From: Pelagimonas varians
GTDB taxonomy: Bacteria > Pseudomonadota > Alphaproteobacteria > Rhodobacterales > Rhodobacteraceae
Direction of reading: 5' to 3'
Length of the DNA stretch: 64,000 nucleotides
Assembly: GCF_003208435.1 (NCBI RefSeq)
Contig: NZ_QKMF01000008.1
Span: 1 to 64,000 of the forward strand
Below the pieces are notes generated by a model that saw only the letters and a list, made by a program, of their open reading frames with translations, made no database searches and was not told where the DNA came from. The position numbers were made by a program, and so were the translations under genes. Every line of letters starts with the position of its first letter. Position 1 is the first letter of the stretch. Positions 44,338-59,164 of the stretch are shown here, piece after piece.

Positions 44338-45999
44338 CTGATTCCTTTTCTTATTCATGTCGCTGGTGCTGCCGCCTTATTGATCTGGGCCGTGCGCCTT
44401 GTCCGCACCGGTGTTGAGCGCGCTTTTGCCGTTCAACTGCGCCTTTGGCTGCGGCGTTCGGCTGCAAACCGTGGCCTTGCTGCCACCGCAGGCACTGTCA
44501 CGGCGATGATGCTGCAAAGCTCAACCGCAGTGGCCGTTTTGGTGTCTAATTTCGCCGCAAAAGGAACCGTAAACACGGCTGTTGGATTGGCAATTTTGCT
44601 GGGGGCAGATCTGGGGTCTGCCATTGTTACGCAGCTGCTATTGGTTCGGCAAACCCTGATGATCCCGGCGCTATTGCTGCTCGGTACAGTTCTATTTCTC
44701 AAGGCTGGTGACCGTAAGTTGCGCCAGACAGGGCGCATTTTTATCGGTTTGGCACTGATCTTTGTGGCCTTGGATATGCTGCGCGCCGCGACGGAGCATA
44801 TTGTTGACAATCCGGCGGCGCTGAACATCCTCAATTATCTGCAAAGCGATCTGTTGTCCGCTTTTTTGATTGGCGCGATATTTGCTTGGATGGTTCATTC
44901 CAGCGTGGCGGCTGTATTGCTGTTTGTCACCGAGGTCGCGCAGGGTGCGTTGCCGCCCGAGGCAGCTATGGCCATGGTTTTGGGGGCTAATTTGGGCGGT
45001 GCGATGATTGCGTATGTCTTGACCTTGGCCGCCCCGGCGGAGGCACGGCGCATCATCGTGGCCAATTTGGTGTTGCGCGGCGGCGGCGCGGGTTTGGTCT
45101 TGGTCGCTCTGATTTTTGCGCCCCAGTTCTTTGAATGGCTCGGGGCCGCTGGTCCCACGCGAGTTATCAACCTGCATCTGGCTTTTAATGCAGCGCTTTG
45201 CGTGTTGGCCTTGCCATTTGTGGACTTGATTTCAAAGGCGGCGGCGGGCGTTGTGAAACCTGTAAACACCGACGAAAGCGACATGGCCTTCACCGCTCTG
45301 GACCCTGCTGCGCTGACCCACCCAAGCCGCGCCCTAAGCTGCGCCGCCCGCGAAACCCTGCGCATGGGCGAACGGGTTGAGGCAATGCTCACCTCAGTTA
45401 ATACAATTTATAATCAATGGGATAACTCTGTCGTTGACGTAATTCGGACGAACTCTAAAACCGTGACGCAGATTCAAAACAACATCAAACTTTATTTGTC
45501 CAAACTCAACCAACAGGCCTTGGATGCGGAAACGGTCAAAGGGGCGATGGACCTGTCACTGCTGGCAACCAATCTCGCTGCCGCATCGGATTTGGTCGGG
45601 CATCGTATGGTCGATTTGGCTCATCGGCTCGAACATGAGCAGCTTAGTTTTTCACCGGATGGGCAGCGTGAAATCGCAGATTTTCATGATCGTGTTCTTG
45701 CCAATGTTCAATTGGCTTTGAATGTCATGATGACCCAAAACCCGGATGAAGCCCGCGAATTGGTTGCGGAAAAAGACAGCATTCGTCTGGTTGAACAACG
45801 TTTGCAGCGCAAACATCTGGAGAGGCTCCAGCACGGTCAATCCGAAAGCATTGAGACCAGTAACATTCACCAAGAAACCCTGCGCGCCCTTAAACAAGTC
45901 AACACATCCTTTGCGCTGGTAGGCTATCCGATCTTGCTGGAAACCGGCGATCTGTTGCAAACTCGGCTGTCGGCGACACCCGAAGGTGGCACCAAATAG
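44338..45999 (+). CDS. Na/Pi cotransporter family protein with PhoU-like tail
   Basis: About 553 residues. Two Na/Pi-cotransporter repeats with QSSTAVAVLVSNF and the matching VHSSVAAVLLFVTEV give a membrane domain to about residue 310, followed by a helical PhoU-like domain. It probably moves phosphate with sodium. No ATG fits the start: the frame contains IPFLIHVAGAAALLIWAVRLVRTG, the usual N-terminus of the family, upstream of the first TTG at 44380. I take CTG at 44338 with AAAGGTG eight bases before it; ATT at 44341 is the alternative. Its stop is three bases from the convergent ABC gene. Confidence 0.8.
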   Translation: MIPFLIHVAGAAALLIWAVRLVRTGVERAFAVQLRLWLRRSAANRGLAATAGTVTAMMLQSSTAVAVLVSNFAAKGTVNTAVGLAILLGADLGSAIVTQLLLVRQTLMIPALLLLGTVLFLKAGDRKLRQTGRIFIGLALIFVALDMLRAATEHIVDNPAALNILNYLQSDLLSAFLIGAIFAWMVHSSVAAVLLFVTEVAQGALPPEAAMAMVLGANLGGAMIAYVLTLAAPAEARRIIVANLVLRGGGAGLVLVALIFAPQFFEWLGAAGPTRVINLHLAFNAALCVLALPFVDLISKAAAGVVKPVNTDESDMAFTALDPAALTHPSRALSCAARETLRMGERVEAMLTSVNTIYNQWDNSVVDVIRTNSKTVTQIQNNIKLYLSKLNQQALDAETVKGAMDLSLLATNLAAASDLVGHRMVDLAHRLEHEQLSFSPDGQREIADFHDRVLANVQLALNVMMTQNPDEARELVAEKDSIRLVEQRLQRKHLERLQHGQSESIETSNIHQETLRALKQVNTSFALVGYPILLETGDLLQTRLSATPEGGTK

Positions 46000-46002
46000 G
46001 CC

Positions 46003-46995
46003 CTACATCCGCGCGCCTGTTTCATCAAAATAGAACCGTTTTTCAGCAGGGGCAGAAACTCGCATCTCGTCGCCGATCCGGGCAAAGTGCTGGCCAAACA
46101 ATCGCAAGGTTATGTTCTGTGTTCCGGTTTTGAGCATGACATTGGTGTCGCCGCCCAGTGCCTCCACATGGGCCACTGTGCCGCTGATGTCGCCTTGCGG
46201 GTCAATACGCAGGTCTTCTGGCCGAATGCCCATTGTACGCGGGTCCGCGCTGTCCACCACCGATGCGGGTAAAAAATTCATCGAAGGCGACCCCAAAAAG
46301 CCCGCCACAAACTGATTGGCCGGATTGTTATACAGCTCCATCGGGCTGCCGACCTGTTCGACACGACCATCGCGCAGAACCACAATCTTGTCGGCCAGAG
46401 TCATCGCCTCGGTTTGGTCGTGGGTCACGTAAATCATCGACGCTGCCAATTGGCGGTGAAGGTTGGAAATTTCAATCCGGGTGTTCATCCGCAGCGCCGC
46501 ATCAAGATTCGACAGAGGTTCGTCAAACAAGAACAGTTTCGGCTGGCGTACAATGGCACGCCCAATGGCAACACGCTGCCGCTGCCCGCCAGAAAGCTCG
46601 GACGGAAACCGTTTAAGATAATCCTCAAGGTCCAGCATACGCGATGCTTCTGCTACGCGCGCATCTATTTCCTCTTTGCTTTGGCCCTCTTGCTTCAGTG
46701 CCAGTGTCATGTTGCCCCGCACATTCAAATGCGGGTATAAAGCATAGCTTTGAAACACCATCGCGATGCCGCGCTTGGCGGGCGGTGTGTGGTTAACCAC
46801 TTCGCCGCCGATCTGGATCTCGCCAGCGCTGGCGTCTTCCAAACCCGCGATCACCCGCAAAAGCGTGGATTTCCCACAGCCTGAGGGACCAACAAAGACA
46901 ACAAACTCACCGTCCTCGACCTCTAGACTGATGTCCTTCAGGACATGGGTTTTTCCAAAGGATTTGTGGACGCCGGTTAGGGAAAGCGCGGTCAT
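46003..46995 (-). CDS. Sugar ABC transporter ATPase (MsmK/UgpC family)
   Basis: A 330-residue ATPase with Walker A GPSGCGKST, Q-loop MVFQSYALYPHLNV, signature LSGGQRQRVAIGRAI, Walker B LFLFDEPLSNLD, and His in VTHDQTEAM, followed by a TOBE/OB domain with GIRPEDLRI. It powers the CUT1 importer encoded by the upstream genes. The start overlaps the oxidoreductase gene by 4 bp; last gene of the murQ operon. Confidence 0.93.
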   Translation of the reverse strand: MTALSLTGVHKSFGKTHVLKDISLEVEDGEFVVFVGPSGCGKSTLLRVIAGLEDASAGEIQIGGEVVNHTPPAKRGIAMVFQSYALYPHLNVRGNMTLALKQEGQSKEEIDARVAEASRMLDLEDYLKRFPSELSGGQRQRVAIGRAIVRQPKLFLFDEPLSNLDAALRMNTRIEISNLHRQLAASMIYVTHDQTEAMTLADKIVVLRDGRVEQVGSPMELYNNPANQFVAGFLGSPSMNFLPASVVDSADPRTMGIRPEDLRIDPQGDISGTVAHVEALGGDTNVMLKTGTQNITLRLFGQHFARIGDEMRVSAPAEKRFYFDETGARM

Positions 46996-48038
46996 TGGGA
47001 TGTCTCCTTTGGCGAGACGGGCAGTGCTACAGGTTGGCCCGTTCGGATGCTTTGGTCAGCGGCAAGGCAAATCGCAAGCGACTGCACCGCATCATTCATA
47101 TGTCGTGTAAGATCAATATTTTCGCGTATGGTACGGATCATGTACGCCTGTTCGGCATCACATAACTCCTGATGGCCCGGCTCATCCGGAAGGTCGATCA
47201 CCTGATCACCGCTTGGGCGATGCACCAGCAAGCCGCCAACCGATGTGTGCCCGTCAATGTCGGCTGACGCGCCTTTGTTTCCATCGGTGATCGAAACCGA
47301 ACCATTGGGGCTGACCACGTCTTTTACGAAACAGGCGGTTTCGGACATCATCGGGCCCCAGCCGGCCTCATACCACCCGACAGAACCATCGTCGAAGAAC
47401 ACCTGAAGCTGGCCGTAGTTATACATATCTGCGGCGATTTCATCGCTGAGACGCATGCCCATGCCATTCACGCGCACAGGCTGCGCATCGGTGATCTGGC
47501 ACATCACATCTACGTAGTGCACTCCGCAATCCACGATGGGCGATGTGGTTTCCATCAGCGCTTTGTGCGTGTCCCATTCAGGTCCCGAACTTTGCTGGTT
47601 CAGGTTCATCCGAAATACATAGGGCCCGCCCAAATCACGGGCTTCCTTGATCAGGCGCACCCAAGATGGATGATGTCGCAAAATGTAGCCAACCACCAGT
47701 TTTCGCCCAGCTGCCTGTGCTTTGGCGGTGACTCGCGTCGCATCCGCAACCGTCATCGCCAGCGGCTTTTCGACAAAGACATGTGCGCCGGCCTCCATCG
47801 CGGCAATGGCATAGTCCGCGTGGGTTTCAGTATAGGTGGCGACAACAACCAGATCGGGTTTGGCATCGTCCAATGCCTGACGAAAGTCCGAGTAGATCGG
47901 ATATCCCTGCAAATCAGGATGCGAAACGGTGCCAGAGCGGCTTACCAATCCGATGATCTCGGATTCAGAACCGGCGTGATGAGCCAACGCGTGGCTGGCC
48001 CCCATGTTGCCCAGCCCTGCAATCAAAACACGGATCAT
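46992..48038 (-). CDS. Gfo/Idh/MocA family NAD(P)-dependent sugar oxidoreductase
   Basis: A 348-residue enzyme with an N-terminal Rossmann fold (VLIAGLGNMGASHAL, residues ~3-17), the family EKP motif in FVEKPLAMTV, and VDCGVHYVDV in the substrate domain. It likely oxidises or reduces a sugar or a keto group. Lying inside a MurNAc/GlcNAc operon (4-bp overlaps on both sides) it is not needed by the known MurQ-NagA route, so it may widen the substrate range. The start at 48038 has GGGGG upstream; the long upstream frame is not used. Confidence 0.85.
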   Translation of the reverse strand: MIRVLIAGLGNMGASHALAHHAGSESEIIGLVSRSGTVSHPDLQGYPIYSDFRQALDDAKPDLVVVATYTETHADYAIAAMEAGAHVFVEKPLAMTVADATRVTAKAQAAGRKLVVGYILRHHPSWVRLIKEARDLGGPYVFRMNLNQQSSGPEWDTHKALMETTSPIVDCGVHYVDVMCQITDAQPVRVNGMGMRLSDEIAADMYNYGQLQVFFDDGSVGWYEAGWGPMMSETACFVKDVVSPNGSVSITDGNKGASADIDGHTSVGGLLVHRPSGDQVIDLPDEPGHQELCDAEQAYMIRTIRENIDLTRHMNDAVQSLAICLAADQSIRTGQPVALPVSPKETSQ

Positions 48039-48874
48039 TTGACTGCCCCCGACGTAAGGCCACGAATCAATTGACGCGAGAAAATCACATAGAGGATCAA
48101 CACCGGCAGGATCGCCATGGACAGGGCCGACAGCACTGCATTCCAGTCTGTGACGAACTGACCGATAAACACTTGGGACCCTAGGGTGAGTGTTTTTACT
48201 TCTTCTGCGGGGGCAAGGATCAGCGGGAACCACAAGTCATTCCAGATCGGGATCATATTGAACACCGCCACCGTCGCCATGGCCGGGCGCACCAAAGGCA
48301 AAACCAGACGGAAAAAGATCGTGTATTCAGACAGCCCGTCAATACGGCCTGCATTCTTGAGGTCTTCGGACACCTGCCGCATGAATTCGGACAAAATGAA
48401 GACCGCCAGCGGCAACCCCTGCGCAGTATAGACCAAAATCAGCGCCCAAAGCGTGTTCACCAGCCCCGTTTGCACCATCATTTCAAGGATCGCGACAGTG
48501 CCGATACGAATCGGGATCATGATGCCAAGCGCCAGATAGAGACCCATTATCATATTGCCCTTAAAGCGATATTCGCTCAGCGCGTAGGCCGCCATTGCCC
48601 CGAACAGCAAGATAAAGAACAACGACCCCACAGTGACAATGAAACTGTTCTGAAAGTAGAGAAAGAAATCCCCCTGCTTGAGAACCGTTTGATACCCAAC
48701 CAGCGAAAAACTGTCTGCATCCGGCAGTGCCAATGGTTCGCGAAATATTTTCTTTCGGGTTTTGAAGCTATTGATAAGGATCACAAAAACCGGAAAAAAC
48801 GCGATGAGTGTGTAGGCAATCAGCGCACCATGCATCGCGATGGCCCCGACTGGATTTGAACGTGCTTTATTCAT
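48035..48874 (-). CDS. CUT1 sugar ABC permease (MalG family)
   Basis: A 279-residue inner-membrane protein with about six helices and the EAA loop LKNAGRIDGLSEYTIFFRLVLPLVRPA. The N-terminal part faces the cytoplasm, and the C-terminus ends with FSRQLIRGLTSGAVK, a typical MalG-type ending. It follows the MalF-type gene by 12 bp and overlaps the oxidoreductase gene by 4 bp. Confidence 0.92.
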   Translation of the reverse strand: MNKARSNPVGAIAMHGALIAYTLIAFFPVFVILINSFKTRKKIFREPLALPDADSFSLVGYQTVLKQGDFFLYFQNSFIVTVGSLFFILLFGAMAAYALSEYRFKGNMIMGLYLALGIMIPIRIGTVAILEMMVQTGLVNTLWALILVYTAQGLPLAVFILSEFMRQVSEDLKNAGRIDGLSEYTIFFRLVLPLVRPAMATVAVFNMIPIWNDLWFPLILAPAEEVKTLTLGSQVFIGQFVTDWNAVLSALSMAILPVLILYVIFSRQLIRGLTSGAVK

Positions 48875-48886
48875 GTCTCGGCCTCC

Positions 48887-49801
48887 TTACAGCTGATACC
48901 GGCGCATCCGGGTCTGGATGCCGAAGAGATAGATGCACACACCGACGAGGATGATCGCGAACATGGCGCTGGCGATGGCAGAGCCCATGTGCGGGTCGCC
49001 CAATTGAAGCTGAAATCCGAAGAAGGTGCGATACATAAAGGTGCCAAGGATATCCGTTGAAAAATCTGGTCCAGCCAAAGCCCCTTGGACAGAATAGATC
49101 AGATCGAAGGCATTGAAATTACCAACAAATGTCAGGATCGAGATGATTCCAATCGACGGCAGGATCAGTGGCAGTTTGATCTTCCAGAAGGCGGAAAACC
49201 CAGTGACACCGTCAATCTCGCCTGCTTCCAGAACCTCTTCCGGAATGGTCAGCAGCGCGGCATAGATCAGCATCATCGGGATGCCAACATATTGCCAGAC
49301 TGAAATCAGCGCGAGCGTGGTCAGCGCGTATTCTTCTTTACCCAGCCACGGGGCGAACAAAGCTTTGAGACCAACCGCATCCAGCATCGATGGGGCAATA
49401 CCCCAAATCGGAGACAGGATCAGTTTCCAGGCAAATCCCACAATAACAAAGCTCAGGATTGTCGGAATAAAAATGGCAGAGCGATAGAGCGCCGCAAACC
49501 GCAGGCGTGGATGGCTCAGAACCGCCGCCAGCGCCACCCCGATCGGGTTTTGCACCAGCATATGAACAACAAAGAACCAAAAGTTATTTCCCAGAGCATT
49601 CCAAAACTGTTCCGACCAAATCGGGTCCAGAAACAGGCGCTGAAAGTTTTCTAGTCCGACGAACACGCGCTCTTGGTCAATCTTGGAATACAGCGCAAGA
49701 CGGAGCGTATTGAACAGCGGGAAAATCATCACGGCGGTGTAGACCAGCACAGCGGGTGCCAGAAACACAACAATGTGCCAGCGAAAGCGAGGGCGATCCA
49801 T
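48887..49801 (-). CDS. CUT1 sugar ABC permease (MalF family)
   Basis: A 304-residue membrane protein, about six helices, EAA loop LEAGEIDGVTGFSAFWKIKLPLILPS. It pairs with the MalG-type protein. An 87-bp gap with a hairpin separates it from the binding-protein gene. Confidence 0.92.
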   Translation of the reverse strand: MDRPRFRWHIVVFLAPAVLVYTAVMIFPLFNTLRLALYSKIDQERVFVGLENFQRLFLDPIWSEQFWNALGNNFWFFVVHMLVQNPIGVALAAVLSHPRLRFAALYRSAIFIPTILSFVIVGFAWKLILSPIWGIAPSMLDAVGLKALFAPWLGKEEYALTTLALISVWQYVGIPMMLIYAALLTIPEEVLEAGEIDGVTGFSAFWKIKLPLILPSIGIISILTFVGNFNAFDLIYSVQGALAGPDFSTDILGTFMYRTFFGFQLQLGDPHMGSAIASAMFAIILVGVCIYLFGIQTRMRRYQL

Positions 49802-49839
49802 GGGGAACCTCTGGAAATGATTTCAAGGGGGATAGGGGT

Positions 49840-49866
49840 GTTCGGGCAGGCAGATCCCGCCCGAAC
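49840..49866 (-). terminator. Intercistronic hairpin after the sugar-binding-protein gene
   Basis: GTTCGGGC (49840-49847) pairs with GCCCGAAC (49859-49866). It follows the binding-protein stop by 22 bases with no T run, so it more likely protects the upstream message than ends transcription. Confidence 0.55.
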
Positions 49867-49888
49867 GTTCAGCTCTCAAGCCAAAGGT

Positions 49889-51142
49889 TTACTGCTGTGG
49901 TTCGTACCACATCGCAAGACCGTCTTGCAGTTTTGCGCCCAGCTCAGCCGGAGTTGATGTCCCCTTGATCGCGGCAACAGAAGCGCCCCACGTGTCGTTT
50001 TCCAAGTTGGGCGTACCACGTGACAGGATCTGGTAAGTTGACCGAATGGTGCTTTCGCATTCACCGCGCCAGCTTACGAACTCTTTGGCCAGCGGGTCTT
50101 CCAGCTCAACCGGTGTGTTCGACAGTGGGAAGAACCCGGGCAGCGCGTTGCCAAAGATGCCCGCGAATTCAGGTGAGGCGACCCATGACAAAAACGCTTT
50201 TGCCGCTTCGGGATGCGCGGTTGCCGCATTCATACCGATGCCGATGTCGGTGTGGTCCGAGATATAGCAGGTGTCGCCAGCGGCCATAACAGGGGCCTTG
50301 AAGGCACCCATTTCGAAGTCGGCCTGAGCGTTGAAACCTGTGATTTCCCATGAGCCCGCAGGATAAATCGCCGCGCGGCCAAGGGTGAACAGGTTTTGGC
50401 TATCTGGATAAGTCTGCGCCTCAAAACCGTCGCCCAGATAGGGACCCCACTTCGCCAGCGTTTCGTATGGTTTCACCCATGCGTCGTCAGTCAGCTTTTG
50501 CTCACCTGCGATCAACGCCTGACGGCCTTCTTCGCCCTTCCAGTAGTTAGGACCAATGTTGTTGTAGCCCATTGTGGCCGCTTCCCACTGGTCATTTGTG
50601 CCCATGGCCATCGGGATATAGTTGCCGTCCGCTTTGAAGGCTTCAAGCGCCGCAAAGAATTCGCCTTCGGTGGTTGGGACCGCTACGCCAACCTCTTCAA
50701 AGGCTTCTTTGTTATAGATAAAGCCGTGGATCACCGATGCCATTGGCACACAAAAGCTGGCAGATCCATCGTCGCTCTGCCATGCGGATTTTGCTACATC
50801 AGAGAAATTGCCCATGGCTTCCATGTCGGCAAGATTGGCCAGATGACCTGCATCATACAGCGCCAAAGAAGCGTCAAACGGGCGGCAGGTGATCAAATCA
50901 CCGGCAGAACCGGCATCCAATTTGGAATTCAAAACCGCGTTGTATTCGGTTGGCGCGGACGGGGTAAAGTTGACTTTGATACCGGGGTTAGCGGCCTCAA
51001 ACGCCGGAATGATTTTGTCCTGCCACAGAGTCAGGTCATCATTGCGCCAGCTTTCGATGTTCAGCGTCACATCCTCGGCGAAAGCGCCCGTTGCTGTCAG
51101 GGCTGTGCTGGCCAATGCCAGAAAAAGTGCCTTGTGTTTCAT
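49889..51142 (-). CDS. Extracellular sugar-binding protein of the CUT1 importer
   Basis: A 417-residue exported protein: signal peptide to GAFA-EDVT (residue ~22), then a family 1 solute-binding fold (NIESWRNDDLTLWQDKIIPAFEAANPGIKVNFT, AGSWEITGF). The ligand is presumably an amino sugar such as MurNAc, GlcNAc or a small muropeptide sugar, judged from the neighbours and not from the pocket. It overlaps murQ by 4 bp. Confidence 0.9.
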   Translation of the reverse strand: MKHKALFLALASTALTATGAFAEDVTLNIESWRNDDLTLWQDKIIPAFEAANPGIKVNFTPSAPTEYNAVLNSKLDAGSAGDLITCRPFDASLALYDAGHLANLADMEAMGNFSDVAKSAWQSDDGSASFCVPMASVIHGFIYNKEAFEEVGVAVPTTEGEFFAALEAFKADGNYIPMAMGTNDQWEAATMGYNNIGPNYWKGEEGRQALIAGEQKLTDDAWVKPYETLAKWGPYLGDGFEAQTYPDSQNLFTLGRAAIYPAGSWEITGFNAQADFEMGAFKAPVMAAGDTCYISDHTDIGIGMNAATAHPEAAKAFLSWVASPEFAGIFGNALPGFFPLSNTPVELEDPLAKEFVSWRGECESTIRSTYQILSRGTPNLENDTWGASVAAIKGTSTPAELGAKLQDGLAMWYEPQQ

Positions 51143-52062
51143 AATGTTACTCCCAGTTTTTCAGTTTTTATTATGTGCAGATTTAGCCCCGACATTGCGC
51201 GGCCCAGATGCCCCTCTGCTGCACCTAATGCAGCATGGGCCAATTCAGGTGTTTGCGCACCCAAAGACAAAAGACAGGCGGTTTTGACATCCCCATCTGC
51301 GCGCGCCAGTGCGCTTGTCGCAGCGGCCTCGTCGACCTGAGTGATGCGGCAGACAATACCTCTGGCGCGTTCGCGCAGCTTGATATTGTCCGCCTTTAAA
51401 TTGACCATCATACCTTGATAGACGTGCCCCAGCGCGACCCCCATCAGCGTCGACAAGGCGTTAAGGGCGATCTTTTGCGCCGTACCGGCCCCAAGCCGAG
51501 TTGATCCGGACAGAACTTCCGGCGGCGTTTGTAAAGCGACGGCATGGGTTGAAAGGTCAAACAGCACGGCATTTGGATTGTTGGCGATACCGATGACGGT
51601 TGCTCCAACCGATTGCGCTATTTTGGCGGCGCGCAGCGTGTAAGGAGTACTGCCGCTGGCTGTGACCGCGATCAGGCAATCGCGGCTTTGCAGACCCGCC
51701 AACGCCACAGACAGTTGCGCGACTTCATCTTCAACATCACCGGGCATATGCGCCGTGGAAGGCACACCGCCTGCCATCAAGATTTCAATCTGGCGGGAGG
51801 GAATACCAAACGTGCCACCCAATTCCATCGCGTCGGCCGCAGCCATCAACCCCGAGGATCCAGCCGCAACATAGTACAGCTTGCCATCACTGCGAATAGC
51901 CTCTGCCATCGCCACGCCACCGGCTTGCAACTGCGCAGTGCAACGCGCGACGACACCAGCGGCCTGAACCTGCGCATCGCATATAGCCATCACAGCCGCG
52001 TCCAGCGTCTGCACGTCCAACGCCAAAGCTTGCGGATGTATTTGTTCAGTTGTTGGCGTCAC
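51139..52062 (-). CDS. murQ: N-acetylmuramic acid 6-phosphate etherase
   Basis: A 307-residue SIS-domain enzyme that removes the lactyl ether from MurNAc-6-P to give GlcNAc-6-P and D-lactate. Visible are AAGSSGLMAAADAMELGGTFGI with the catalytic Glu, VTASGSTPYTL, the hallmark PEVLSGSTRLGAGTAQKIALN and NLKADNIKLRERA. The first motif differs from the usual GTSGRLGVLDA, so it is a divergent member. It begins with GTG and has GAGGGG nine bases upstream. First gene of the importer operon and divergent from the kinase operon. Confidence 0.88.
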   Translation of the reverse strand: MTPTTEQIHPQALALDVQTLDAAVMAICDAQVQAAGVVARCTAQLQAGGVAMAEAIRSDGKLYYVAAGSSGLMAAADAMELGGTFGIPSRQIEILMAGGVPSTAHMPGDVEDEVAQLSVALAGLQSRDCLIAVTASGSTPYTLRAAKIAQSVGATVIGIANNPNAVLFDLSTHAVALQTPPEVLSGSTRLGAGTAQKIALNALSTLMGVALGHVYQGMMVNLKADNIKLRERARGIVCRITQVDEAAATSALARADGDVKTACLLSLGAQTPELAHAALGAAEGHLGRAMSGLNLHIIKTEKLGVTL

Positions 52063-52091
52063 AGCAAGAATCCCCTCATCTGACCAGAAGC

Positions 52092-52118
52092 ATACCTTTA
52101 CAATACCATTTGTCTACC
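52092..52118 (-). promoter_or_regulatory. Three 11-bp-spaced GGTAT/GGTAG boxes upstream of murQ
   Basis: On the plus strand ATACC (52092), ATACC (52103) and CTACC (52114) recur at exact 11-bp steps, that is GGTAG-GGTAT-GGTAT towards murQ on the minus strand. One helical turn per step puts all boxes on one DNA face. Candidate site of the GntR/UTRA regulator in this locus. Confidence 0.55.
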
Positions 52119-52171
52119 ATTTTTTATTTCTGTTGATATTCGGCGATTTACGCCACGCAAATCGTCCAATA

Positions 52172-52218
52172 GGTATCATTTCGGCCTTTCAATTTTACAA
52201 AAGGTATTATATAGGTAG
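52172..52218 (+). promoter_or_regulatory. Matching GGTAT/GGTAG boxes upstream of the kinase gene
   Basis: GGTAT (52172-52176), GGTAT (52203-52207) and GGTAG (52214-52218) lie on the plus strand, the last two 11 bp apart and the last five bases from the ATG. The inward copy of the murQ-side boxes makes the divergent promoter region roughly symmetric. Confidence 0.5.
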
Positions 52219-52222
52219 CACC

Positions 52223-53095
52223 ATGACCAGACCACCCGACATAATCGCCATAGATGGCGGAGGCACCCGGTGCCGCGTCTCCTGCGAGATCGCAGGCCAA
52301 CGTCACACCTATGAATCCGGCAGCTGCAATGTCACATCCGATATGGACGGGGCCGCACAGCAAATTCTGGACGGACTTGACGGGCTTGCCGAAGTCATCA
52401 GTCTTGACGCCTCAAAACTGCATTCCGTTCCGGCCTATTTAGGGCTGGCAGGCGTTACTGGCCCAAGCAAGGCCTCCGAAGTTGCAGGACGATTGCCGTT
52501 CTCACAGGTTCGCATCGAAGAAGATCGCGTAGCTGCGGCACGCGGTGCTTTGGGGCTGGGCAACGGGGCGCTTATCCATTGTGGAACCGGGTCTTTTCAG
52601 GTGGTCCAAACCGACGGGCACCCGCGCTTTGCAGGCGGATGGGGCGCAAGGCTGGGCGACGAGGCATCGGCGCAGTGGGTGGGGCGAATGGCCTTGTCCG
52701 CAACCCTGAACGCGCGGGATCAATTGACACCGCATACGGATTTGACAACCGCTTTGCTTGCACAATTTGGCGGAACGACAGGGATCGTTGAGTTTGCGGC
52801 AAAGGCCTCGGCCTCTGACCTTGGAACAATCGCACCAGACGTCACGGCAGCGGGAGAGGCAGGCGATGCGATCGCTAGGACCATTTTGGAAGATGGCGCA
52901 AATTGGCTGACCTTCGCGATCAAACGCTTGGGGTGGGCCGCACCAATGCCGATTACCTTTACTGGCGGAATTGCACCTTGCTACGCCCGCTACTTCCACG
53001 AGGACTTGCAAGACGTGCTGGCCCCCGCCTTTGGAACCCCGCTCGATGGGGCCATCGCCCTCGCTTATGACTTCAAAAAGGAGCTCATGGGATGA
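52223..53095 (+). CDS. BadF/BadG-type sugar kinase, probable N-acetylglucosamine/N-acetylmuramic acid kinase
   Basis: A 290-residue ASKHA-fold kinase: PHOSPHATE-1 loop IAIDGGGTRCRVS at residues 7-19, GLAGVTGP, IHCGTGSFQVV and the ADENOSINE loop FTGGIAPCYARYF. Members of this family phosphorylate GlcNAc, glucosamine or MurNAc with ATP. As the importer is ATP-driven and leaves the sugar unphosphorylated, a kinase is needed before MurQ and NagA can act. The start at 52223 is chosen over an upstream TTG. It overlaps the next gene by 4 bp. Confidence 0.85.
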   Translation: MTRPPDIIAIDGGGTRCRVSCEIAGQRHTYESGSCNVTSDMDGAAQQILDGLDGLAEVISLDASKLHSVPAYLGLAGVTGPSKASEVAGRLPFSQVRIEEDRVAAARGALGLGNGALIHCGTGSFQVVQTDGHPRFAGGWGARLGDEASAQWVGRMALSATLNARDQLTPHTDLTTALLAQFGGTTGIVEFAAKASASDLGTIAPDVTAAGEAGDAIARTILEDGANWLTFAIKRLGWAAPMPITFTGGIAPCYARYFHEDLQDVLAPAFGTPLDGAIALAYDFKKELMG

Positions 53096-53850
53096 GTGTT
53101 TCTACGTTTCTGGACCCTGAGCAATGGCTCTCGCCCAGTGCCGGTCCGCGCTATGTCCAACTGCGCCGGCGGCTTGAACAGGGCATTGCCGACGGGGTTT
53201 TACCTGCCAACAGTTCACTGCCGCCGGAGCGTGAACTGGCAGATATGACAGATCTGTCCCGCGTCACCGTGCGCAAAGCCATTCATGAACTGGTCGAAAA
53301 GGGCCTGATCATTCAGCGTCAGGGGTCTGGATCCTTCGTTCGGGAAGCTGAACCAAAAGTTGAACAATCCCTGTCACATCTGACGTCCTTTACCCAAGAC
53401 ATGAGTCGACGCGGGATGGAAACGACGTCCAGCTGGCTTGAACGCGGGATATTTATGCCCTCCCCCGACGAAGTCATAGCCCTAGCCCTGTCCACGGGCG
53501 AATCCGTAGCGCGCATCACCCGCCTGCGCGAAGCAGGTGGACGGCCGATGGCAATTGAACGGGCAGCCTTGCCGCTAGACATTTTACCCAACCCGCTTGA
53601 GGTCACCACGTCGCTTTATGAGCTTCTTGATGCCAGCGGACAGCGGCCCGTGCGCGCGGTTCAGAAAATTTCGGCTGTCAATTTGCCCGCCAAGGATGCC
53701 GAGCTTCTGGGCGTCGCCGAAGGCACCGCAGGGCTAAGCATCAAACGCACATCGTTCCTCGAAAACGGACGTGTCGCGGAATACACCCAATCGCTTTATC
53801 GCGGTGACGCCTATGACTTTGTCGCCGAATTGCGGTTATCCAACGCATGA
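53092..53850 (+). CDS. GntR family regulator with UTRA domain (NagR/NagQ-like)
   Basis: A 252-residue repressor with an N-terminal winged helix (LEQGIADGVLPANSSLPPERELADMTDLSRVTVRKAIHELVEKGLI) and a UTRA ligand domain (~90-245) that in this group senses GlcNAc-6-P or a related sugar phosphate. It sits inside the kinase-SIS-NagA operon and likely controls both divergent units through the GGTAT/GGTAG boxes. Confidence 0.9.
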   Translation: MSVSTFLDPEQWLSPSAGPRYVQLRRRLEQGIADGVLPANSSLPPERELADMTDLSRVTVRKAIHELVEKGLIIQRQGSGSFVREAEPKVEQSLSHLTSFTQDMSRRGMETTSSWLERGIFMPSPDEVIALALSTGESVARITRLREAGGRPMAIERAALPLDILPNPLEVTTSLYELLDASGQRPVRAVQKISAVNLPAKDAELLGVAEGTAGLSIKRTSFLENGRVAEYTQSLYRGDAYDFVAELRLSNA

Positions 53851-53859
53851 GGCTGAGTT

Positions 53860-54888
53860 ATGACCACTGAAACGACCCAGATGCGCCGCGAGATCGAAGA
53901 GATCCCCGCGGCTGTTGATCGCCTGCTCACTGCAGGAGGCCCCGCAATCGCCAAGACCAAAGCCCTGATTGGCGATGATATTCCCTATCTTATGTCTGTC
54001 GCGCGCGGCTCGTCTGACCACGCTTGTTCGTTTTTGAAATATGCGTGCGAGCTGGAACTGGGGTTGCCGATGGCTTCGGTCGGACCGTCGGTCGCGTCGA
54101 TCTACGGGGCCAAGCTAAAGGTCCCGAAAAACGCGCTATGCCTGTCGGTCTCGCAATCCGGCAAAAGCCCCGACATTGTCGAATTGACCCGCGCCTTGAC
54201 CGAGGCCGGAGCCACCAGTGTGGCGATCACCAATGACGACACGTCGCCGCTGGCCCAGATCGCGACGGCAACCCTGCCAATCTGCGCCGGACCTGAGCTG
54301 AGCGTCGCGGCAACCAAGACGTTTGTCACCTCGATGGTGGCGGGTTTGTGGTTGATCGCTGAATTGAAAGGCAACACCGAATTATTGACCGCAATCCGCG
54401 CCCTGCCCGAGCACTTGGAAGCCGCAACCAAATGCGATTGGACCATGGCCGCCAATGCAATCAACGGCCAATCTGTTTTGACCTTGGGGCGCGGCCCGTC
54501 TTTTGCCATTTCGAACGAAGCTGCGCTGAAGTTCAAGGAAACCTGCCAAATTCACGCCGAGAGCTATTCTTCGGCAGAGGTCATGCATGGCCCCGTTTCG
54601 ATAGTTGAGCGCGGATTTCCAGTAATCGCCTTTGCCGCTGCGGATGCAGCAGAGCAATCTTTGGTAGATGTGGCTGATGCGCTGACCGAAAAAGGCGCAC
54701 TGGCCTTTGTCACCAGCCGCAAAGCCAAAAAGGCGATCTGCCTGCCGCATCAACGGACAGATCATTGGCTGACCGACCCGATTTCATCCGTTGTGTCCTT
54801 TTACGCGATGGTCGAAAAGGTCTCGACCGCGCGAAATGTCAATCCGGACGCCCCGCGCCATCTGAACAAGGTAACGGAAACGGTATGA
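53860..54888 (+). CDS. SIS-domain glucosamine-6-phosphate deaminase/isomerase (NagB-II, GlmS-like)
   Basis: A 342-residue protein made of two SIS domains (SVARGSSDHACSFLKYACEL, LCLSVSQSGKSPDIVEL, ILTLGRGPSFAISNEAALKFKETCQIHAESYSSAEVMHGP) equivalent to the isomerase part of GlmS without the glutaminase domain. Such proteins convert GlcN-6-P to fructose-6-P plus ammonia and replace classic NagB, which is not seen here. It overlaps nagA by 4 bp. Confidence 0.88.
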   Translation: MTTETTQMRREIEEIPAAVDRLLTAGGPAIAKTKALIGDDIPYLMSVARGSSDHACSFLKYACELELGLPMASVGPSVASIYGAKLKVPKNALCLSVSQSGKSPDIVELTRALTEAGATSVAITNDDTSPLAQIATATLPICAGPELSVAATKTFVTSMVAGLWLIAELKGNTELLTAIRALPEHLEAATKCDWTMAANAINGQSVLTLGRGPSFAISNEAALKFKETCQIHAESYSSAEVMHGPVSIVERGFPVIAFAAADAAEQSLVDVADALTEKGALAFVTSRKAKKAICLPHQRTDHWLTDPISSVVSFYAMVEKVSTARNVNPDAPRHLNKVTETV

Positions 54889-56045
54889 ACCCTGCGCGCC
54901 AGATCTTTCACGGTGGTCCGATCTTTGACGGGGAACGGTTGCTGAACGATCATTGCTTGGTCGCCCAAGATGGGGTGGTCGCGTCAATAGAGCCTGATCG
55001 AAATAGCACGGATGATTTTGAAGCGATCGATCTGGGCGGAGACATACTGGCACCGGGTTTTGTTGATTTGCAGGTGAATGGCGGCGACGGGGTGATGTTC
55101 AACGATGCCCCGACGTTGGAAACCTTGCAACGCATGGCCCGCGCGCATCGCAGCCTTGGGGCAACGTCGATTTTGCCCACCTTGATCACAGATACAGCGA
55201 ATAAAACCGCCTCCGCGATCGCCGCTGCAAAACAAGCCATCGCCGCAAACACCCCGGGGATCGCCGGATTGCATCTGGAGGGTCCGCATTTGTCGGTTGC
55301 CCGAAAGGGCGCGCATTCAGCAGGGTTAATCCGCCCGATGGATGATGCCGATTTGGCAATGCTGTTAGACGCGGCTGCAGAGTTACCCGCCTTGATGCTG
55401 ACAGTTGCCCCTGAAAATGTCCGCACCGATCAAGTGCAGGCATTGGCTCAGGCCGGAGCCATTGTTTCGCTGGGGCATACCGACGCCGATTTTGAAACCT
55501 GTATGGCATATACCGACGCTGGCGCGCGCTGTGTCACGCATCTGTTCAACGCCATGAGCCAACTTGGAAACCGCGAGCCCGGCTTGGTGGGGGCCGCATT
55601 GCAAAACGGAGCGCTGTCAGCAGGTCTGATCGCAGACGCCGTGCATGTGCATCCTGCTACGATCCGCGCCGCATGGGACGCCAAGTCAGGCCCAAGCGAG
55701 GTGTTTTTGGTCAGTGATGCGATGGCCTGCGCTGGAAGTAACATTCAGTCGTTTGAAATCGACGGCCGCATCGTCTTGCGCAATCAGGGTCAGCTGACGT
55801 TGCAAGACGGCACTCTGGCCGGCGCAGATCTGGACCTGTGCACCGCCTTGCGCGTGATGGTTCGGCAGGTCGGCATTCCTTTGCAGTCTGCTTTGCGGGC
55901 CGCGACGTCCGTTCCGGCGAATTTAGCGGGATTGAAACAAGGCCGCCTGATCGGGGCAAATGCATTGGATATGATCCGCATTACCCCTGAATTTGCGCTG
56001 AACCCACAATCACCGGCTCTAACCGAAACCACAACTGGCGCTTGA
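54885..56045 (+). CDS. nagA: N-acetylglucosamine-6-phosphate deacetylase
   Basis: A 386-residue amidohydrolase that removes acetate from GlcNAc-6-P. The family pattern GFVDLQVNGGDGVMFND, the metal-binding Glu in HLEGPHLSVARKGAH, His in LGHTDADFE, CVTHLFNAMS and catalytic Asp in LVSDAMACAG are all present. The ATG at 54885 overlaps the SIS gene stop; the longer frame is rejected. It ends the catabolic operon. Confidence 0.94.
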   Translation: MNPARQIFHGGPIFDGERLLNDHCLVAQDGVVASIEPDRNSTDDFEAIDLGGDILAPGFVDLQVNGGDGVMFNDAPTLETLQRMARAHRSLGATSILPTLITDTANKTASAIAAAKQAIAANTPGIAGLHLEGPHLSVARKGAHSAGLIRPMDDADLAMLLDAAAELPALMLTVAPENVRTDQVQALAQAGAIVSLGHTDADFETCMAYTDAGARCVTHLFNAMSQLGNREPGLVGAALQNGALSAGLIADAVHVHPATIRAAWDAKSGPSEVFLVSDAMACAGSNIQSFEIDGRIVLRNQGQLTLQDGTLAGADLDLCTALRVMVRQVGIPLQSALRAATSVPANLAGLKQGRLIGANALDMIRITPEFALNPQSPALTETTTGA

Positions 56046-56752: not shown

Positions 56753-57370
56753 ATGGCGTATGTCAAATGGACCTTAATTGTTGTGTTTTGGGTCATTGTA
56801 GCTGGCTTCTTGCACTACACTCTGCCGCAGCACGACATTGTTCGGATCACCGACACCTATGAAAAGCGGGTCGATCCCGGCGACAACAGCTTGTTTTGGG
56901 CCCAAGCAGATGTGGGCAGCGATGGTACAATGCCCAATCGTGACGTGTTCTTTATCCAAACCACGACACCGGACGGCAAGATCATCGTTTACCGCAACGA
57001 AGACACCGGATGGGGCTGGCCGCCCTATTTCAAGTTCGATACCTCAAACCTTTATGCCGAGGCGACCGATCTGAAATCAACATCCGCCGTACCGCGCTGG
57101 ATTGCCGTGCGCCACTACGGCTGGAGGAGCGAGTTTATCTCGATCTTCCCCAACGCTCTCTCGGTTCGCGAAGTCGAAGGGCCGGATGTGCAAATCATCC
57201 CATGGCTTAACATTCTCATCCTGACCGGTTTGGCGGCACTGTTCTGGGCAATCCGAGTACGTTGGAACCGGTTTCAGGCCAAGCGGATCGATCCAATGAT
57301 CGAAAGCGTTGAAGACCGCATCGATGATGGTGGAAGCTGGCTAAAGCGCACGTTTAGTAGAAAAAGCTGA
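56753..57370 (+). CDS. DUF1523 family membrane protein
   Basis: A 205-residue protein: an N-terminal helix (~5-23), a periplasmic beta-rich domain (HDIVRITDTYEKRVDPGDNSLFWAQ, RDVFFIQTTTPDGKIIVYRNEDTGWGWPPYFKFD, VPRWIAVRHYGWRSEFISIFPNAL), and a second helix (~150-168) with a charged cytoplasmic tail. This matches DUF1523, found across Rhodobacterales, function unknown. AAGGGG precedes the ATG. Shared terminator with soeC follows. Confidence 0.8.
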   Translation: MAYVKWTLIVVFWVIVAGFLHYTLPQHDIVRITDTYEKRVDPGDNSLFWAQADVGSDGTMPNRDVFFIQTTTPDGKIIVYRNEDTGWGWPPYFKFDTSNLYAEATDLKSTSAVPRWIAVRHYGWRSEFISIFPNALSVREVEGPDVQIIPWLNILILTGLAALFWAIRVRWNRFQAKRIDPMIESVEDRIDDGGSWLKRTFSRKS

Positions 57371-57448: not shown

Positions 57449-58321
57449 TTACCTTTTGCCGTAATACAGCCCGACAACATGTTCTGCTTGCGCGAAAAAC
57501 AACCAACGCGACACAACAACCCCGGTGACATGCGAAAGCACGGCGATGATTGCCATCAAGTGGTGGGGATTGGTCAGCAAAATCATCAGCGGCAAGACTG
57601 TCATCAACCCCAATGAAATCAATCTCAGCTTGTCGCCGTGTTTACGGCCAACGACATAGACAAACTCTTTGAGCAGATAGTTGGTTCCGGTGTGAGGTGG
57701 CTCAAACGCCCGCACAGATCCGCGATCCCCAAGGCCCGTCGCCGTGCCAATCGTCGCGCCCGCATCGCCAAAGCGCAGATCACCTTGCCAAAACCAATAG
57801 GCCTGAACCCCGCCCGCCAGCGCGATCAAAAAGATCGCCATGGAAATCTTGCCCGCCAACAATGCGCCGCCGCCAAGAGACAATGCAAAAAACAGCACCG
57901 GTGTGGACCAATGATGCCAGCGCGGGATTGTCTTGAGTTGCGCGTAGATCATCGATGTGGTGCCAACGGTCGCCATGCATAGCAACGCCCCCAGCCACCC
58001 CAGAACGGCGACATGGACGCCCAGTACAATCAGACAAAACGCATAAAGGCCCATCACCAGCATGGCCGACGCAGCGGCCCAGGCCTCTCGGCTCAGCCAA
58101 CTGCTCTGCCATTGGCTGAACGCTTTCAGCGCGCGCTCGGGATGCCCGAGATGAAAGGTCGAGGCCGCAAGCCCGATGCCCGTCATTCCAAAAGCCAGTG
58201 TAAAAAAGGTAAACCCGACCCAGCCGCCGCTGGGATCCGGATCAATACCTAGCCAAAACAGAAGACCAAGACCGAGGCCTGACAGCGTGGTAAAGGCAAT
58301 AATGGAGGGTGCTGGATGCAT
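57449..58321 (-). CDS. soeC: SoeC, membrane anchor of the sulfite dehydrogenase SoeABC
   Basis: A 290-residue DmsC/NrfD-type membrane protein with about eight helices. It anchors SoeAB to the inner membrane and hands electrons to the quinone pool. The ATG at 58321 overlaps the soeB stop by one base (TGATG), with GAGAAAA upstream. A frame starting ten codons earlier is rejected because it overlaps soeB further without a ribosome site. Confidence 0.88.
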   Translation of the reverse strand: MHPAPSIIAFTTLSGLGLGLLFWLGIDPDPSGGWVGFTFFTLAFGMTGIGLAASTFHLGHPERALKAFSQWQSSWLSREAWAAASAMLVMGLYAFCLIVLGVHVAVLGWLGALLCMATVGTTSMIYAQLKTIPRWHHWSTPVLFFALSLGGGALLAGKISMAIFLIALAGGVQAYWFWQGDLRFGDAGATIGTATGLGDRGSVRAFEPPHTGTNYLLKEFVYVVGRKHGDKLRLISLGLMTVLPLMILLTNPHHLMAIIAVLSHVTGVVVSRWLFFAQAEHVVGLYYGKR

Positions 58322-59070
58322 CAGATTTTCTCCAAAGCTTTGTCGAGCCAACCCAGAAATCCTGTGGCCTCGGTTGCGACAGGTTCAAGCCACGGGGCCA
58401 GAACGTCAACTTCGCCTTCCCACGTGTCCTTGGGTTTGGGAGGAAGATATTTGTTGACCGGCTTTGTGCCCAACTCGGGCATGAGATCCATTCCGCCACG
58501 CTCTGCACTTAGTTTCGAGACATTGCTGTCTGGATCTGCGAAATCGCCGAAATGGCGTGCGCCTGCAGGGCAGGTGCGCACACATGCGGGTTCGCGGTCC
58601 TCTTCGGGTAGATTTTCATTGTAAATCCGATCCACGCAGAGGGTGCATTTCTTCATGACACCTTCAGCAGCATCCAGTTCGCGTGCTCCGTAAGGACAGG
58701 ACCAAGCGCATAGCCCACACCCGATGCAATCACTTTCGTTGACCAGAACAATGCCATCTTCGACCCGTTTATAGCTGGCCCCTGTCGGGCAAACCGTCAC
58801 GCAGGGAGCATCATCGCAGTGCAGGCAAGATTTGGGGAAATGCACCAATTGCGCCGGAGCGGCGGCTGGTTGCACTTCGTAGCTGTGAACACGGTTGAGG
58901 AACGTGCCAACCGGATCGGCACCATACGGGTCTTGATCTGACAGCGGCGCGCCATAGTTTTCCGTGTTCCAGCCTTTGCAGGCAATGACGCAGGCGTGGC
59001 AGCCGACGCAGGTGTCCAGATCAATGACCAGCCCAAGCTTGCGATGGGTGGTTTGTGGAAGTGAGGTCAT
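58321..59070 (-). CDS. soeB: SoeB, iron-sulfur subunit of sulfite dehydrogenase
   Basis: A 249-residue electron-transfer protein with four cysteine sets: CVGCHACVIAC, CLHCDDAPCVTVC, CIGCGLCAWSC and CTLC...ACVRTC, giving four [4Fe-4S] clusters. It carries electrons from SoeA to SoeC. No signal peptide, so it stays in the cytoplasm. GCAGGAGG precedes the ATG at 59070; the open frame upstream is not coding. A 94-bp gap separates it from soeA. Confidence 0.9.
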   Translation of the reverse strand: MTSLPQTTHRKLGLVIDLDTCVGCHACVIACKGWNTENYGAPLSDQDPYGADPVGTFLNRVHSYEVQPAAAPAQLVHFPKSCLHCDDAPCVTVCPTGASYKRVEDGIVLVNESDCIGCGLCAWSCPYGARELDAAEGVMKKCTLCVDRIYNENLPEEDREPACVRTCPAGARHFGDFADPDSNVSKLSAERGGMDLMPELGTKPVNKYLPPKPKDTWEGEVDVLAPWLEPVATEATGFLGWLDKALEKI

Positions 59071-59164
59071 GGGTGGGCCTCCTGCAGGATTGGCATGTGG
59101 ACGGGGCAGGACCGGGGCGCTGCCCCGGACCCCGGAGTTTTCTTGGCAAGATGAAGAAGCAAGA

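Follow-up and report, generated by a model that had tools for sequence, protein, structure and literature searches.

In the 64,000-nucleotide stretch of the Pelagimonas varians genome analyzed here (contig NZ_QKMF01000008.1; the window), we examined a ten-gene locus at positions 46003 to 56045. The locus is probably a NagQ-controlled system of the NagTUVW type for uptake and catabolism of N-acetylglucosamine (GlcNAc), whose divergent MurQ homolog most likely still acts as an N-acetylmuramic acid 6-phosphate (MurNAc-6P) etherase. The gene families, a set of direct repeats between the operons, and the conservation of the gene set are established directly here. The operon belongs to a known kind of system; its odd member is the MurQ homolog.

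Gene content and importer

Families were assigned with Pfam and NCBIfam models. All ten genes lie inside 46003 to 56045 and form two divergent operons; a first-pass annotation made from the DNA letters alone had proposed this arrangement and these families, and the models bear both out. On the minus strand lie, by ascending position, an ATP-binding cassette (ABC) transporter ATPase of the NagTUVW type (46003 to 46995; UgpC/MalK type, PF00005 and TOBE_2, above the cutoff of the UgpC subfamily model PRK11650), a Gfo/Idh/MocA oxidoreductase to which no role was assigned (46992 to 48038, with 48038 the likely start; PF01408), a CUT1-type permease of the MalG/UgpE side (48035 to 48874; PF00528, best named models GlcU, UgpE, and MalG, below cutoff), one of the MalF/UgpA side (48887 to 49801; PF00528, best named models GlcT, UgpA, and MalF, below cutoff), a sugar-binding protein (49889 to 51142; SBP_bac_8/SBP_bac_1), and the MurQ homolog (51139 to 52062). 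The plus strand carries a BadF-family amino sugar kinase akin to NagK and MurK (52223 to 53095; PF01869), a GntR/UTRA regulator that is probably NagQ (53092 to 53850; PF00392 and PF07702), a predicted SIS glucosamine-6-phosphate deaminase of the NagB-II type (53860 to 54888), and NagA (54885 to 56045). For the kinase, ATG 52223 is a likelier start than TTG 52133, and NagA likely starts at ATG 54885.

The importer genes have the layout of nagTUVW (SPO1835 and SPO1837 to SPO1839), which encodes an ABC transporter for GlcNAc in Ruegeria pomeroyi DSS-3; there, a mutant of the binding protein SPO1839 showed 78.4% less growth on GlcNAc and 92.7% less drawdown (PMC10130141). The SPO numbering has room for one gene between the ATPase and the permeases, and the window likewise has an ATPase, one intervening gene, two permeases, and a binding protein in this order. 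The same order was shared by all 21 named Ruegeria loci, the intervening gene encoding a Gfo/Idh protein in 21 of 21. The likeness is one of gene order, not of SPO sequences, and the passages of PMC10130141 available to us mention neither a MurQ homolog nor a Gfo/Idh gene; no word beginning with "muram" occurs in its main text. In Sinorhizobium meliloti, one paper gives SMc02873 as a multiple sugar-binding protein. We take SMc02869 to SMc02873 to be the GlcNAc transporter listed by GapMind.

PTS_EIIC (PF02378), a domain of the phosphotransferase system (PTS), had no match in the organism's own genome. The non-PTS GlcNAc route of the first-pass annotation is well supported, with its importer and regulator and with a kinase, a deacetylase, and a SIS-type deaminase as its enzymes. 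Its proposal that the importer brings in free MurNAc or GlcNAc stands in part: GlcNAc is verified for the R. pomeroyi transporter of the same layout, while for MurNAc the proposal stays conjectural, this branch resting on a MurQ homolog of a divergent clade.

NagQ-type repeats between the operons

NagQ is described as a regulator of GlcNAc use that occurs in alphaproteobacteria and betaproteobacteria as well as some gammaproteobacteria; its motif is of the repeat type (PMC5343134) and is given as direct repeats of TGGTATT (PMC4494728). With the regulon as presented in these sources in part, the locus shares a GntR/HutC-type regulator (GntR plus UTRA domains), nagA, nagB, and TGGTATT-like direct repeats. 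The repeats lie in the intergenic region, which spans 52063 to 52222 provided that the kinase begins at ATG 52223. On the minus strand, three GGTA[T/G] units with an 11-bp period (52092 to 52118) probably serve NagQ as its site at the murQ-importer operon; on the plus strand, two units with this period (52203 to 52218) probably do so at the kinase operon. Each set includes one GGTAG unit.

The spacing was assessed in 76 MurQ-kinase intergenic regions, namely, that of the window and those of 75 of the best 80 named loci described below (the other five, which lacked a kinase match or a gap that could be used, were omitted). In 75 of the 76 regions, the best GGTAT pair at the 11-bp period matched 9 or more of its 10 letters, and in 72 it was perfect. 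At the other spacings from 7 to 15 bp, no more than four regions reached 9 letters and no more than one was perfect. Among 380 shuffles, 2.1% had a pair of at least 9 letters at 11 bp, and none had a perfect one.

Kinase, deaminase, and NagA

NagA scored 282 bits against the cutoff of 225.65 bits of the equivalog model TIGR00221. The SIS protein matched the profile of the PDB 8eol group, a named deaminase, with 198 bits; its best match was PDB 3fj1, presumably an R. pomeroyi protein. The kinase profile was closest to 1zc6 (named a probable GlcNAc kinase), followed by a hexokinase and by 8zo3, a MurNAc/GlcNAc kinase that we assume to be Clostridium acetobutylicum MurK; NAGK was also matched. 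NagB-II-only loci were dropped as a control, as most of the 11 represented other SIS systems.

The kinase residues aligned to the lactyl pocket read AGGWG, as in 8zo3 and human NAGK, and the C3 substituent faces none that is bulky and charged. Judged from these residues, the kinase may accept MurNAc, which does not imply that it uses it; we rejected them as decisive for the substrate, since GGWG suits GlcNAc and MurNAc alike. In Tannerella forsythia MurK, acceptance of MurNAc is ascribed to the small residues Ser133-Pro134-Leu135, and human NAGK is described as free of conflict with MurNAc, in the part of PMC10465942 available to us. According to the same source, Tannerella resembles the window in having an ATP-dependent kinase adjoining a MurQ homolog; it differs in the Ser-Pro-Leu motif versus the NAGK-type GGWG of the window, whose transporter is an ABC importer. 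The ABC-plus-kinase route, which had been singled out as notable, is less novel than it seemed, as Tannerella murTKQ already has an ATP-dependent MurNAc kinase beside MurQ (PMC10465942).

Conservation of the gene set

We scanned named genomes by MurQ, which gave at least 584 confirmed matches, and used the best 80 loci for named-locus counts. These include Ruegeria, Phaeobacter, Tritonibacter, Shimia, Mesorhizobium, Phyllobacterium, Aminobacter, and Devosia. The full ten-gene order recurred in 67 of the 80, which indicates that the grouping did not arise by chance, and binding protein, MurQ, kinase, regulator, SIS protein, and NagA were all present in 72; several of the remaining loci are truncated by contig ends.

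Since named loci were selected via MurQ, starting from the binding protein is the fairer test of co-occurrence. The family sample comprised 149 genomes, one per genus, and the class sample 385 genomes, with three binding-protein-positive genomes in both. In the family, an ortholog of the binding protein (E value of 1e-60 or better; 65 to 87% identity where whole) was found in 35 genomes, 33 of which also had the MurQ homolog; the two exceptions (G022 and G118) are both at contig ends. The MurQ homolog (E value under 1e-30) occurred in 40 of the 149 genomes, and 4 further of 44 listed matches were weak (E values of about 1e-4 to 1e-5). Seven family genomes have it without this importer (G037, G057, G083, G093, G094, G131, and G146). 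In the class, 21 of 385 genomes had the binding protein (E value of 1e-80 or better), and in 20 the MurQ homolog stood beside the importer; in the exception, G215, the binding protein is an orphan, and its 11-kb contig carries no permeases. Within 9 kb of 119 nonduplicate binding-protein loci, most of which came via MurQ, we found MurQ at 118, the kinase at 116, the regulator at 116, the SIS protein at 113, NagA at 112, and Gfo/Idh at 106.

The MurQ homolog was present in three of three genomes of the genus examined, and two congeners (L263 and L264) carry all ten genes in identical order. Between the window and L263, kinase, MurQ, and NagA share 63 to 72% identity versus 92 to 99% for permease, binding protein, and regulator; the first three diverge far faster. 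Loci L052 and L058 have the MurQ homolog, regulator, SIS protein, and NagA without a BadF kinase nearby, the kinase being elsewhere or absent.

The divergent MurQ homolog

Motifs and trees, in addition to models, were used to assign the MurQ homolog. It passed PRK05441 (271 versus 168 bits) and fell below TIGR00274 (172 versus 302) and PRK12570 (196 versus 255). Missing TIGR00274 says little: its cutoff is attained in just 8 of the 385 class genomes, and a miss is usual for alphaproteobacterial MurQs. We rejected this cutoff as decisive also because it does not separate the clades: scores of the two MurQ types described below overlap, and genome G165 holds both, at 242.7 and 241.8 bits.

The protein aligned over nearly its full length with Haemophilus influenzae MurQ (HI0754, PDB 1nri; 4lzj is of the same family). 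Glu89, Glu120, and Lys239 of that enzyme are presumably the catalytic glutamate pair and the phosphate-binding lysine. The window protein keeps this set as Glu80, Glu111, and Lys228; Glu80 and Lys228 were found in all 139 aligned MurQ rows and Glu111 in 138. Unlike in H. influenzae MurQ, the Arg of GAGTSGR (here Leu72), the Glu of VEGAED (here Gly108), and the Lys of RLK are replaced. Position 72 is Leu or Met in 107 sequences and Arg in 31, and the Leu/Met and Arg groups differ sharply at 76, 83, 106 to 108, 208, 213, and 225. Lys191 was rejected as decisive, as the Arg-type forms also vary there. Arg72 and Glu108 are lost jointly in nearly every case and may pair only with each other in a salt bridge.

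The Leu/Met set formed one side of a branch with a Shimodaira-Hasegawa-like approximate likelihood ratio test (SH-aLRT) value of 98, in a tree that omitted 11 loci with broken or overlong frames. In a wider set of 160 rows, in which L104, L110, and L170 duplicate L045, L047, and L050, position 72 was also His, Val, Thr, or Ala. The importer was present in 121 rows, of which 117 were non-Arg, 2 Arg, and 2 unreadable. Without this importer were 7 non-Arg rows, all 7 with a NagQ-like regulator, and 32 Arg rows. AnmK lay in the stretch around MurQ in nine rows, all of them among the 34 rows of the Arg type. A second, thinned tree had 66 rows; L067 and L076 were omitted, and of the Leu-type rows linked to the importer, about one in five had been drawn at random. 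This tree again placed the non-Arg set (32 rows) on one side of a branch, at an SH-aLRT value of 90. Both trees were built by a quick method with no bootstrap and retained the columns of the position-72 trait itself. Nine loci added later had Val and Met forms at 72 and no Arg. The ratio of nonsynonymous to synonymous substitution rates (dN/dS) was 0.09 to 0.13 for the window versus L263 and for three named pairs, i.e., the MurQ homolog is under purifying selection; it changes faster than the importer.

Streptomyces NagS is likewise a MurQ-related SIS protein acting in GlcNAc metabolism; it differs in being reported, in the part of PMC12680351 available to us, as a separate clade restricted to Streptomycetaceae. 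Judged by spacing, NagS Arg64 appears to correspond to a Glu that is retained in MurQ forms. As the best models of the window protein are MurQ models and NagS is reported from Streptomycetaceae only, we rejected NagS identity. No paper on this MurQ clade was found in our searches of an open-license library from which most subscription journals are missing.

Two loci join Arg-type MurQ to the GlcNAc operon. In L234 (G190), an Arg-type MurQ (229.5 bits, below cutoff; grouped with the other Arg sequences in the tree) stands in the usual place of the MurQ homolog, flanked by the binding protein and the kinase. In L081 (G047), the GlcNAc operon, which has a NagB-type gene, lacks its own MurQ, and an Arg-type MurQ above the cutoff (416 bits) adjoins it. 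Around the latter (G047:C41:68000-87500), an RpiR regulator faces a cluster of Arg-type MurQ, an SBP_bac_5 oligopeptide-type ABC importer, and AnmK, likely a system for muropeptide or anhydro-MurNAc uptake. Elsewhere, Arg-type MurQs also stand beside a BadF kinase and NagA (L218, L220, L223, and L227). At L220, from another alphaproteobacterial family, the exo-muramidase NamZ is encoded next to NagA, a BadF kinase, and an Arg-type MurQ (G252:C6, 4510 to 8564); this is a compact MurNAc-use cluster. Two non-Arg loci with a NagQ-like regulator, L065 (G094) and L077 (G057), differ in their ABC importer and carry a kinase of the ROK type instead of BadF (by Pfam in L077, by eye in L065); L065 also carries a CutC-like gene.

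Muramic acid genes elsewhere and neighboring genes

The organism's own genome encodes AnmK above an equivalog cutoff, a NagZ-like GH3 protein just under the cutoff (202.7 versus 207 bits), and adjoining TsaE, AmgK-like, and MurU-like genes, for which AmgK and MurU were the best models, below cutoff. By sequence, the AnmK, NagZ-like, AmgK-like, and MurU-like genes point to a putative recycling route of the Pseudomonas type for muramic acid, which would give an intracellular source of MurNAc-6P without MurNAc import. For AnmK, AmgK, MurU, MurK, and MurP, pathway roles beyond the cited passages are those generally known. The NamZ_N exo-muramidase domain was found in none of the 149 family genomes, the own genome included.

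Adjoining the locus, 44380 to 45999 encodes a Na+/Pi cotransporter with a PhoU domain. On its other side follow a DUF1523 protein (56753 to 57370) and, at 57449 to 61993, a DmsC-like anchor, a 4Fe-4S protein, and a molybdopterin oxidoreductase, i.e., a complex of the dimethyl sulfoxide reductase type.

Proposed pathway and alternatives

GlcNAc would enter through the ABC importer, as import has been shown in the relative R. pomeroyi. The BadF kinase would convert it to GlcNAc-6-phosphate (GlcNAc-6P), NagA would deacetylate this to glucosamine 6-phosphate, and the NagB-II protein would release fructose 6-phosphate and ammonia. NagQ is predicted to keep both operons repressed, with a sugar phosphate as the signal that lifts repression. 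The MurQ homolog would most likely still take lactate off MurNAc-6P, supplied either from MurNAc by this kinase or from anhydro-MurNAc by the separate AnmK, and muramic acid would thereby drain into the GlcNAc route. An etherase role is favored because the catalytic residues are kept, the gene is under purifying selection, and Arg-type MurQ occurs in the same slot (L234) or beside a MurQ-less operon (L081), which argues for the same role.

Several observations weigh against this assignment. The binding protein was matched to SPO1839 via gene order and genus, not sequence. In a pooled R. pomeroyi screen, transporter mutants were the most enriched instead of depleted, for which the authors invoke cross-feeding (PMC10130141, seen in part). 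The core of the NagQ regulon, as far as given in PMC5343134, has a PTS-family transporter, unlike the ABC importer, kinase, and MurQ homolog of the window. The kinase has NagK_SO3507 as its sole NCBIfam match, at 140 versus a cutoff of 370 bits, and the best model of the SIS deaminase, NagB_SO3506 (NF046059), gave 273 versus 430 bits, a cutoff that none of the 149 family genomes reached. The MurQ clade is remodeled at 72, 76, 83, 106 to 108, 191, 208, 213, and 225, positions that by analogy to NagS and MurQ we infer to lie near active-site loops. Finally, at least three genomes hold both MurQ types, which argues for specialization: in G165 and G420 the Arg type lies by AnmK and the other type in the GlcNAc operon, and G313 has both on separate contigs.

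A MurQ homolog that is no longer a MurNAc-6P etherase seems unlikely to us. It would apply C2-deprotonation chemistry to another GlcNAc-6P derivative as an integral step of GlcNAc use, candidates being another 3-O-substituted sugar, dehydration or rehydration of GlcNAc-6P, or epimerization between GlcNAc-6P and N-acetylmannosamine 6-phosphate. GlcNAc catabolism, as far as it is known, can proceed without an etherase, which counts for this idea, as do the tracking of residue 72 by genomic context (117 of 121 importer-linked rows non-Arg, 9 of 9 AnmK-near rows Arg), the non-Arg clade in both trees (107 rows at 98, 32 at 90), and the coexisting Arg-type MurQ in G165, G313, and G420. The accessible part of PMC12680351 adds that NagS is a GlcNAc-6P dehydratase, but also that three distant NagS homologs lack this activity. 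Moreover, the catalytic residues are retained, Arg-type MurQ replaces the homolog in L234 and adjoins the operon in L081, and the joint change of Arg72 and Glu108 may reflect just a lost salt bridge. A shade more doubtful is the fuller claim that NagTUVW operons have, in their MurQ homolog, an enzyme family of its own that is fixed in GlcNAc use by alphaproteobacteria, has as its substrate some GlcNAc-6P derivative other than MurNAc-6P, and is required for efficient GlcNAc catabolism.

Somewhat more plausible than either, though still not what we expect, is a role in internal recycling only, which overlaps the preferred reading of a GlcNAc locus with a MurNAc-6P etherase. AnmK would turn anhydro-MurNAc of the cell itself into MurNAc-6P, which MurQ would divert to catabolism at times of abundant GlcNAc, with no MurNAc import. 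The AnmK, NagZ-like, TsaE, AmgK-like, and MurU-like genes would allow this, and muropeptide import by YejBEF-YepA has been proposed in the literature for Rhodobacterales. However, AmgK-MurU already routes such MurNAc (in Agrobacterium, and in Caulobacter without MurQ), and among the 160 rows, no non-Arg row had AnmK in the examined stretch. MurNAc, or GlcNAc-MurNAc, as the importer's natural substrate with GlcNAc secondary, which the first-pass annotation favored, is improbable. Importer and MurQ homolog are indeed coinherited (33 of 35 in the family and 20 of 21 in the class, the exceptions being G022 and G118, at contig ends, and the orphan of G215), but GlcNAc is verified for the R. pomeroyi counterpart (PMC10130141) and NagQ is a GlcNAc regulator (PMC5343134), both sources seen in part. 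NamZ_N is missing from the 149 family genomes, whereas Arg-type rows have AnmK nearby in 9 of 34 cases and NamZ at L220. In L081, furthermore, the importer operon does without an etherase of its own, and MurQ heads the separate SBP_bac_5-AnmK cluster.

If the MurQ homolog is an ordinary etherase, many alphaproteobacteria would couple GlcNAc and muramic acid breakdown under one regulator and with no PTS involved. Otherwise, the GlcNAc pathway of roseobacters and their relatives would include an enzyme that is both widespread and misannotated.

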